A stretch of 64,000 nt of DNA, taken from contig JAQCBT010000003.1 in NCBI GenBank assembly GCA_027621405.1, positions 62,001 through 126,000 of the forward strand. Direction: 5' to 3'. Position numbers and translations under genes: made by a program. Positions 43,146 through 46,255 of the stretch are shown here, one piece after another. Origin of the DNA: Pseudomonadota bacterium. Lineage in GTDB: Bacteria; Pseudomonadota; Gammaproteobacteria; Pseudomonadales; Pseudohongiellaceae. The notes below the pieces were generated by a model. That model worked only from the letters and a program-made list of their open reading frames with translations, did no database searches and had not been told where the DNA came from. The first letter of the stretch is position 1, and the number at the start of each line of letters is the position of its first letter.

Positions 43146-44570
43146 CTAAGCAAGGGAGTCTCGCTGCGACTCGATGTATCGCTGCAGCTCGGCGAGAACC
43201 TGTTGTCCCCTGACATCGGCCCGCTCCTGGGCCTCCGCCAACTCTTCCTCGTACAGCTTTAACCGCTCCAATTCCGTAAGCCGTGTACGTCGGAATTCAT
43301 TCCAGGCCTGCAGTTCTTCTTCGAGCAAGGTCTGCGGATAATTTCGTGCCCGGTAACGGAACAGCATCTCCTGCAGCCTGCCGTCATTGAACGGTAAATC
43401 CAGCCGTGGCAGATCGCCCGGCGGTGTATTCCGCACCAGTTGCATGAGTTGCTTGTCGTTCTCGGAGAAGAAGCCGCCGGAATAAATCATGAAGTCCGGA
43501 TCCTGTTCCTGGGGATGCTGCTCCTGCCGATAAATATTGGCGATACGCCGTGGTAACTGCGGCATGCCCTGCAGCTGCTCCCAGTGCTCACGACAGGCAT
43601 CGAGATCGACATCATACAGCGCAGCGCGCTCCGGACTCAGCACCGCAGGTGAAGTCACGATAGGTGAGCGGTTGTAGTGAATAACTTTCAGGGGAATCCG
43701 CTCCACGCCCTCCCCCAGCTCGGCACTGGCGGTAAACAACCTTTCCCGAATCTGCTCATCGCTCAAGGACACCCAGGTCGCTGGATCGACCCGCAGGTCG
43801 TAGACGATCACCCCGTTGCTGTTGCTGGGGTGAGCACAGATCGGCATCACCAGGGCGAGGCAGCCCTTACTTGACGGATACATCACGGACACATGCAATA
43901 CCGGCTTGCGGGTCTTTAGGTCGATTTCCGCCTGCACCTTCTGTTTCGAGCGCAGTTGGTAGGCGTAATCGAACAACTTGGGCTGCTTGTCCTTGATCAG
44001 TTTCGCCATTGCGATGGTGGCCAGCACATCCGACAGGGCATCGTGAGCATCTGCATGCTCAATACCATTGGCCACGGTTAGTTCTTCCAGGCGAAAACTG
44101 TTGCTGCCATCCACCTTCTTCGGCCATTCGATGCCCTCGGGCCGGGTGGCGGCGCACAGGCGCACCATGTCGATAATGTCCCAACGCGAATTGCCGTTCT
44201 TCCACTCCCGTTCATAGGGATCGTAGAAATTGCGATACAGCAGCTGACGAGTTACCTCATCATCGAATCGAATGCTGTTATAGCCAGTTACGCAGGTACC
44301 GGGCTGCGAAAACTCACCATGAATCTTCTTGATGAACTCCGCCTCCGGCAATCCTTCTGCTTTCGCCTTCTGGGGAGTGATGCCCGTGATCAGGCAGGAC
44401 ATGGGGCTGGGAATGAAATCGTTTGCCGGCTGGCAATACATGACCAGCGGCTCGCCGATGATGTTGAGGTCCTCGTCCGTACGAATACCAGCAAACTGAC
44501 TGGCGCGATCCCGTCGTGGGTCCCTGCCAAAGGTTTCGAAGTCGTACCAGTAAATACTTTTGTCGGCCAA
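43146..44570 (-). CDS. sbcB: Exodeoxyribonuclease I
   Basis: IYWYDFETFGRDPRRDRASQFAGIRTDEDLN, CVTGYNSIRFDDEVTR, EHADAHDALSDV. Confidence 0.96.
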   Translation of the reverse strand: MADKSIYWYDFETFGRDPRRDRASQFAGIRTDEDLNIIGEPLVMYCQPANDFIPSPMSCLITGITPQKAKAEGLPEAEFIKKIHGEFSQPGTCVTGYNSIRFDDEVTRQLLYRNFYDPYEREWKNGNSRWDIIDMVRLCAATRPEGIEWPKKVDGSNSFRLEELTVANGIEHADAHDALSDVLATIAMAKLIKDKQPKLFDYAYQLRSKQKVQAEIDLKTRKPVLHVSVMYPSSKGCLALVMPICAHPSNSNGVIVYDLRVDPATWVSLSDEQIRERLFTASAELGEGVERIPLKVIHYNRSPIVTSPAVLSPERAALYDVDLDACREHWEQLQGMPQLPRRIANIYRQEQHPQEQDPDFMIYSGGFFSENDKQLMQLVRNTPPGDLPRLDLPFNDGRLQEMLFRYRARNYPQTLLEEELQAWNEFRRTRLTELERLKLYEEELAEAQERADVRGQQVLAELQRYIESQRDSLA

Positions 44571-44712
44571 TTTTGTTTCCTGCCATAGCTATGATGATCA
44601 TCATAGCATGCTCAACCGTGACCGCCTGCCATCGAACATGTTTGGTACCTATGCATACTCTATGCTTCTTGCTAGTTCTTCACGAATCTAACAAGCTGAG
44701 TACCAGTTGGGC

Positions 44713-44819
44713 CGAGCAGCAGGTAGGGCTTTTGGAGACACGCCGTGAACCCATCCCTAGGGGCTCGCGAGCGACATCCTTGTCGCTCGACGGTCTCCAA
44801 AAGCCCTACCTGCTCCTCG
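44713..44819 (+). repeat. Compound inverted-repeat element copy 1 (27-bp arms, 59-bp core 44737-44795)
   Basis: CGAGCAGCAGGTAGGGCTTTTGGAGAC ... GTCTCCAAAAGCCCTACCTGCTCCTCG, 1 mismatch; internal hairpin CGAGCGACA-TCCT-TGTCGCTCG. Confidence 0.95.
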
Positions 44820-44950
44820 ACCCTTCATTATCCAGTGACACTTTCAACAGAGACAACCGCTGGCCCCCGATTCCATTGAGCGCCGCGCAATTGTTTAATG
44901 ATTCTCAAAGCTAAAAATGATTGGAAGGAAAAGAACTTCGGAGCGAATCG

Positions 44951-45065
44951 GCTTGAGGCTCGTAGGGGGGACTAAGGCGACCGTCGAGCGACAGGGATGT
45001 CGCTCGCGAGCCCCCAGGGATGGGTTCACGGCGTGTCGCATTAGTCCCCCCTACGAGCCTCAAGC
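44951..45065 (-). repeat. Compound inverted-repeat element copy 2 (25-bp perfect arms, 59-bp core 44979-45037, opposite orientation)
   Basis: GCTTGAGGCTCGTAGGGGGGACTAA ... TTAGTCCCCCCTACGAGCCTCAAGC; core is the reverse complement of the 44737-44795 core with 2 differences. Confidence 0.95.
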
Positions 45066-45238: not shown

Positions 45239-46255
45239 ATGGAATTTCGCGGCGCTCACATCCTCAGTGTTACCCAGTTTGAGCGAGACGATGTGCAGCG
45301 GGTGTTTGAGGTCGCGGACAGCATGGAACCCTATGCCCATCGCTTGAGGATCAGCAAGGCCCTGGATGGCGCGATTCTCGGCAGCATGTTCTTCGAGCCC
45401 AGCACCCGCACGCGGGTGAGCTTCGGCTGCGCATTTAACCTGCTGGGAGGCCATGTCAGGGAGACCACGGACATCAAGTCTTCCTCCATTACCAAGGGCG
45501 AATCCCTCTACGACACGGCCCGGGTCATCAGCGGCTACTCCGATGTGGTGGTGATGCGTCATCCGCAGCCGGGGTCGGTGGCCGAGTTTGCCAAGGCCAG
45601 CCGGGTGCCGGTGATCAACGGTGGTGATGGTCCTAACGAACATCCCTCCCAGGCCCTGCTGGACCTGTATACGATCAAGAAGGAGCTGATCTCGAAGCAG
45701 CGCAGTATCGACGGCATGCATATCGCCATGGTAGGGGACCTCAAGCATGGGCGGACGGTGCACAGCCTGTCCCAACTCTTGCTTCTCTATAAGGGCATCA
45801 CATTCAGCCTGATCTCCCCCAGGGAACTGAAGATGCCGGATTCCATCGTCGCCGAGCTGCGCAATGCCGGTCACGAGGTGATCGAGACCGAGGACATGGA
45901 GGCGGGCCTGAAGGATAACGACACGGTATACCTGACCCGCATCCAGGAGGAACGCTTCGAAAACAAGCTGGAGGCGGATATCTATCGTGGGCGCTTCCGC
46001 ATGAACCAGGCCATCTATACCCGTCATTGCCAGCCCAACACGGTTATCATGCATCCCCTGCCCCGGGATTCCAGGGAAGAGGCGAACGAACTGGACAATG
46101 ATTTGAACCAGCACCCAAATCTCGCCATTTTCCGCCAGACCGACAACGGGGTGCTAGTGCGCATGGCGCTGTTCGCGCTTATACTGGATGTCACCGACAA
46201 GATCGACAGGAATGCCACCGACGTGGGCTGGTATACGGAAAGCCGCTTCGACTAG
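45239..46255 (+). CDS. pyrB: Aspartate carbamoyltransferase catalytic chain
   Basis: FFEPSTRTRVSF, GDGPNEHPSQALLDLYTI, HPLPRDSREEANELD; start at MEFRGAHILS. Confidence 0.95.
   Translation: MEFRGAHILSVTQFERDDVQRVFEVADSMEPYAHRLRISKALDGAILGSMFFEPSTRTRVSFGCAFNLLGGHVRETTDIKSSSITKGESLYDTARVISGYSDVVVMRHPQPGSVAEFAKASRVPVINGGDGPNEHPSQALLDLYTIKKELISKQRSIDGMHIAMVGDLKHGRTVHSLSQLLLLYKGITFSLISPRELKMPDSIVAELRNAGHEVIETEDMEAGLKDNDTVYLTRIQEERFENKLEADIYRGRFRMNQAIYTRHCQPNTVIMHPLPRDSREEANELDNDLNQHPNLAIFRQTDNGVLVRMALFALILDVTDKIDRNATDVGWYTESRFD

Follow-up and report, generated by a model that had tools for sequence, protein, structure and literature searches.

The window, a 64,000-nt stretch of DNA, contains two 115-bp elements that lie in opposite orientation in the 668-bp gap between sbcB and pyrB (Table 1). 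Each element has a 59-nt core, and the two cores differ at two positions (57/59 identical). The cores are enclosed by 31-bp arms that are self-complementary with their own partner and unrelated between the two elements. Two of the 31 arm pairs are mismatched in element 1 (C.C and C.A on the core strand) and one of 31 in element 2 (T.C, adjoining the core). On the minus strand, the core loops of element 1 read AGGGA (H1) and AAGGA (H2). The folded strand (see below) is sense to sbcB in element 1 and sense to pyrB in element 2. Chance similarity is excluded by covariance-model E values of about 1e-19 in the genome itself, where both window copies also belong to the training set of the model, and plain BLAST and exact patterns concur.

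Table 1 Elements and neighboring genes in the sbcB-pyrB region (window coordinates).
Feature	Position	Strand	Details
sbcB (exonuclease I), left neighbor	43146..44570	-	
Element 1, complete	44709..44823	+	left arm 44709-44739, head, right arm 44793-44823; covariance-model E=5e-19
Element 1, conserved 59-nt core	44737..44795	+	three-way junction; H1 loop TCCCT, H2 loop TCCTT
Spacer separating inverted elements 1 and 2	44824..44950	.	127 bp, unique sequence
Element 2, complete	44951..45065	-	outer arm 45035-45065, head, inner arm 44951-44981; covariance-model E=1.3e-19
Element 2, conserved 59-nt core	44979..45037	-	three-way junction
pyrB (aspartate carbamoyltransferase), right neighbor	45239..46255	+	

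These observations bear out the original prediction of two elements with 57/59-identical cores, in opposite orientation and about 130 bp apart (127 bp as measured), between the divergent sbcB and pyrB. It had described outer inverted repeats of 27 bp (one mismatch) and 25 bp (perfect). The arms are indeed self-complementary, but each has 31 pairs, with two and one mismatches. The core does hold a hairpin of its own as predicted, although we find two rather than one, in a three-way junction. The arms, said to differ apart from GTAGGG, are wholly different; this motif is not kept across the family and its sharing is probably due to chance. In agreement with the claim that no transposase is nearby, none was found among the six neighboring proteins tested around the pair. 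An intrinsic terminator was ruled out, as neither arm in the window is followed by a T-run.

Distribution and anatomy of the repeat family

We built a covariance model (R1) from 40 copies with different arms. In the genome of the window, BLAST found only two close copies, a mismatch-tolerant pattern added two, and R1 found seven, which rules out that only two copies exist. This genome holds a second +/- pair, on contig C29. R1 found 41 and 33 copies in two further genomes (G041 and G039, respectively), 81 in a Cellvibrionaceae, 34 in a Pseudomonas, at least 108 in S. maltophilia E301, and at least 133 in M. azerbaijanicus. A public scan with 26 specified core letters recovered more than 117 exact core matches outside the genome of the window. 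Carriers among the matches listed were Xanthomonas, Stenotrophomonas, Lysobacter, Marinobacter, Rheinheimera, Arsukibacterium, Pseudomonas, Halopseudomonas, Cellvibrionaceae, Saccharospirillum, and others. When the phylum was sampled evenly, 9 of 199 genomes had exact core-pattern matches and all nine were Gammaproteobacteria; the reversed-pattern control gave zero, and there was no exact match in the approximately 135 genomes of non-gammaproteobacterial classes in this sample.

The element was not found in the phages, plasmids, viral contigs, and E. coli that we searched. Rfam 15 returned no match above the gathering threshold for the window and 19 loci from other genomes. Its sub-threshold matches, to eukaryotic microRNA hairpins and a Yersinia sRNA, were set aside as chance similarity of long stems. 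A search of the open full-text literature gave no match to the core sequences, which may be described in papers outside it. The window elements belong to a large, apparently uncatalogued repeat family of many gamma-proteobacteria, which adds an abundant and structurally well-defined family to well-studied genera (Xanthomonas, Stenotrophomonas, Marinobacter, and Pseudomonas).

The alignment of the 40 copies has no gaps over 97 columns. All 22 arm pairs vary on both sides and 94.4% of arm cells are paired in these copies, which were picked partly by arm pairing but in a way that favored no pair type. Sliding the register lowers arm pairing from 91% to 35-46%, and none of 500 shuffles was comparable. 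With no structure assumed, mutual information from 167 copies recovers the foot of P1, H1 (9-20, 10-19), and the base of P3 (25/e-1, 26/e-2). In order, the head consists of P1; A-C; P2 (GCC:GGC) with a GTGAA bulge and hairpin H1; T; and P3 with one bulged A and hairpin H2. Both hairpin loops are ANGGA on the reverse strand. An alternative P2 pairing predicted on the reverse strand (positions 6-25) was ruled out, as it shows no covariation. Arms are 26-31 bp long in most copies and form a stem of about 29 bp, the sequence of which varies freely while its halves stay complementary. The original suggestion that arms covary under structural selection is supported by the covariation of all 22 pairs, the mutual information, the strand-biased arm mismatches, and the concerted change at rho-ubiD (both below); among other copies the arms are not identical everywhere, and their pairing partners covary. 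Arms that are free in sequence and always paired provide a natural experiment on how palindromes remain palindromic.

H2 is a lineage marker, with the same stem in most copies of a genome or genus. Examples include GGCATTGCCATCC..GGCAATGC in Marinobacter and TTGAAAAGG..CTTTTCAA in G039, where the arms are locus-specific. In Stenotrophomonas and Xanthomonas, in contrast, arm types are common to several loci. The flanks of the foot are either lineage-specific (GACAGTTTCC in Stenotrophomonas, AGTGCCA in G039) or unconserved.

We also identified variant heads. In the S. maltophilia complex (L239, L243, L256, and L259), a structured insertion of about 100 nt (GGTCCGGCCCAGCCGCTGGCGGCTG...GCGAAGCAGTGCTTCGC) lies within the H1 loop of some heads, with the stems intact. 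Freshwater gamma MAGs (L073, L088, and L098) have a larger nested hairpin with CGACCGCCATGGATGGCGGAAGTGC and its own GGA loop in place of H2. Among internal loops of H2 (e.g., L013, L040, L097, and L132), a TC/TC tandem mismatch recurs in unrelated genomes, perhaps as a conserved internal loop.

Folding strand, pair geometry, and locus history

We compared arm mismatches in 146 elements whose arms are distinct. Read on the core strand, there were 95 A.C against 19 G.T, 53 T.C against 14 G.A, and 20 C.C against 3 G.G. The dominant mismatches read G.U, G.A, and G.G on the complement and are better tolerated there in folded RNA or ssDNA. This bias was seen in 38 of 47 H2 lineages, and RNA folding energy favors the reverse strand in 99 of 130 cases. 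Because the bias is present whichever way the flanking genes run, we conclude that the reverse strand is kept folded regardless of neighboring transcription. A cytosine deamination-type mutation bias would be expected to raise just one of the three mismatch classes. Mismatch asymmetry is a simple test for the functionally folded strand of any genomic palindrome.

Neighboring copies less than 400 bp apart are arranged + then -, with cores facing, in 37 of 46 cases, and +/- spacing is 200-399 bp in 68 of 74. Clusters and singles with an assignable intergenic position lie between co-directional genes in 38 cases, convergent genes in about 22, and divergent genes in 7, at a median distance of 55 bp to a gene 3' end versus 129 bp to a 5' end; the gene positions for these counts are our own codon-model calls and not annotation. 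Since the family is mostly co-directional or convergent, with few divergent sites, the sbcB-pyrB site of the window is atypical. We rejected the reading of each element as a 5'-UTR element of a divergent gene because co-directional and convergent sites show the same geometry of pairs. Single elements show no orientation preference relative to neighboring genes (13 : 12); a bias in a crude count (24 : 10) was gone with better partner detection and gene calls. There was no excess of sigma70 promoters over shuffles in element flanks. One locus (G378:C1:94445-95381) is a tandem array of five same-orientation copies at about 227-bp spacing, unlike the usual inverted pairs. In S. maltophilia (L212-L231), pair spacers often hold other repeats, e.g., GGGGTCAGATCCGTTTTCC..GGAAAACGGATCTGACCCC, that resemble the TIR of a local RAYT, as would be seen if spacers were a hot spot for insertion.

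The window pair is absent from all 28 congeners with a measurable sbcB-pyrB junction. Their two genes lie 161-368 bp apart, compared with 686 bp in the window, and the lineage of the window therefore probably acquired the pair. At rho-ubiD of Marinobacter, orthologues keep the head while the left and right arms change in mirror (e.g., ATCTTC/GAAGAT and ACACCC/GGGTGT), and the arm intermediates are mostly core-strand A.C. Both members are kept in some species, with the first alone or the second alone in others. In L347, from this site, the head was lost between 7-bp direct repeats (TCCCCGG) and a plain hairpin remains. Double arm changes in close Marinobacter alleles comprise 14 transversions and 10 transitions. 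At one S. maltophilia-complex site, alleles were replaced by paralogues with other arms. Same-site alleles in this complex include an inversion of the whole pair (L257), a mosaic with unmatched arms (L249), and a fusion to a single element (L251). Three Marinobacter rho-ubiD loci (L343, L364, and L371) hold a further long palindrome whose apical part differs (GTTCAGGGAAACC..GGTTTCCC). Compared with L343, this apical part is inverted in L371, as a flip through recombination between the arms would produce.

Possible origins and functions

We interpret the family as a REPIN-like, interspersed, non-coding, and non-autonomous repeat, recognized as a folded single strand, whose unit would be an inverted pair of ~115-nt hairpins. 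We rank this reading first, because the family parallels REPs in the geometry of its pairs, its copy number, its placement, and the folding of one specific strand, and consider it about equally likely to be right or wrong. The pair would be copied in trans by an enzyme that recognizes the head as a folded single (reverse) strand, as RAYT does REPs. After insertion, the stem would drift in concert, and halves of the pair, or heads alone, would later be lost. Structure, covariation, copy number, pair geometry, and folding strand are shown by the analysis. We infer recognition and copying, and also mobility, since no clean empty site was recovered at base resolution; the pair geometry is fixed, and every congener tested lacks both elements of the window.

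The original prediction had raised a link to a Y1/RAYT-type transposase. This was not borne out at the 30 PF01797 loci examined (of 42 matches, in 19 genomes), none of which had an element copy within 1.5 kb. No autonomous copy (an ORF between two elements) was found; a 1.6-kb interval between two elements (L043) was rejected as a candidate, its contents being ordinary chromosomal genes. Unrelated arms on nearly identical heads within one genome count against the REPIN-like reading, as they are poorly explained by slow compensatory change. The double changes in close Marinobacter alleles, in which transversions are as frequent as transitions, hint at templated copying, and one arm serving as template for the other may play a part.

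Alternatively, the folded reverse strand could be an RNA that binds CsrA/RsmA, with the two C-ANGGAU-G loops of each head, at fixed spacing, forming one dual-site ligand per dimer. Dispersed copies would then titrate this regulator or control the transcripts in which they lie. In 151 of 152 elements the H1 loop is TCCNT, which reads ANGGA on the reverse strand, and TCC is present in nearly all H2. Two ANGGA motifs occur in 124 of 156 cores versus 2 expected in shuffles, and are 18 nt apart in 105. H2 in the window reads ACAAGGATGT, matching the CsrA SELEX consensus RUACARGGAUGU, and the motifs fall on the strand picked independently by the mismatch analysis. Their location in hairpin loops, with two sites at least 10 nt apart, agrees with published criteria for CsrA ligands (PMC7652899), and the reported optimum is an intersite distance of >18 nt with six-nt hairpin loops (PMC7652899). 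However, the element has no orientation preference relative to neighboring genes (singles, as above), no promoter signal adjoins it, the transcript-sense member of a pair is no better conserved (few pairs), and the stems of H2 exceed typical CsrA ligands in stability. We therefore regard CsrA/RsmA binding as possible but rather unlikely. Less probable again is that the family forms a self-spreading, dispersed set of putative dual-site CsrA/RsmA ligands, in which reverse-strand RNA would sequester the regulator and inverted pairing would ensure one exposed ligand whichever side read-through comes from. If the CsrA resemblance is real, the repeats would be a reservoir of regulator-binding sites.

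The arms might instead be kept complementary by functionless copying at the DNA level (template switching or hairpin-templated correction, possibly with inverted flank duplication at insertion). This would account for the unrelated arms on copies with the same heads and H2 stems (G039, Marinobacter), the rapid concerted arm change at rho-ubiD, and the double changes in close alleles, which are transversions no less often than transitions. It leaves unexplained the strand-asymmetric mismatches, the fixed arm length, the conserved head, and the fixed pair geometry, and we consider it improbable. The original prediction had offered inverted flanks created on insertion as an alternative. At a fixed orthologous locus the arms change in concert, but unrelated arms on near-identical heads within one genome would be compatible with such an origin. 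The originally proposed branched cruciform, or a nucleoid or insulator element acting as double-stranded DNA in a divergent promoter, would fit the perfect inverted repeats and intergenic placement but is very improbable, because a cruciform expects equal folding of both strands whereas mismatch tolerance is five-fold asymmetric, pointing to one single strand kept folded, and because the family avoids divergent promoter regions.

Comparison with known systems

Integron attC sites have conserved outer ends and a variable inside. This is the reverse of the conservation pattern of the element, and attC was dropped as a candidate. CsrB/RsmZ-type CsrA ligands are similar to the element in having ANGGA in hairpin hexaloops at two sites about 20 nt apart. 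The element differs from them as a dispersed repeat with a long stem and a conserved junction.

The TIR repeats of TIRYTs, defined with the GTAG and CGTC REPs by Di Nocera et al. 2013 (PMC3733652), are likewise self-complementary dimeric repeats abundant in S. maltophilia. However, the S. maltophilia RAYT loci examined carry different TIRs (GGGGTCAGAGCCCTT... and AAAAGGGGACGGAGGGG...), not the element, which flanks no TIRYT transposase gene among the loci examined.

The REPIN-like reading draws on the resemblance to RAYT-mobilized REP, REPIN, and BIME sequences. Unlike the REP, a simple palindrome of 20-40 bp, the element is ~115 nt long with a three-way-junction head and 26-31 bp arms, has no GTAG or CGTC tag at the hairpin foot, has a locus-specific stem sequence, and has no RAYT gene next to any copy in the loci examined. 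The likenesses are high copy number, extragenic location, palindromic sequence, frequent inverted dimers, and a single-strand-specific fold; TnpA-REP binds the REP single strand and not its complement (PMC8266576). As with REPs, co-directional and convergent intergenic regions are favored and singletons would be remnants of dimers.
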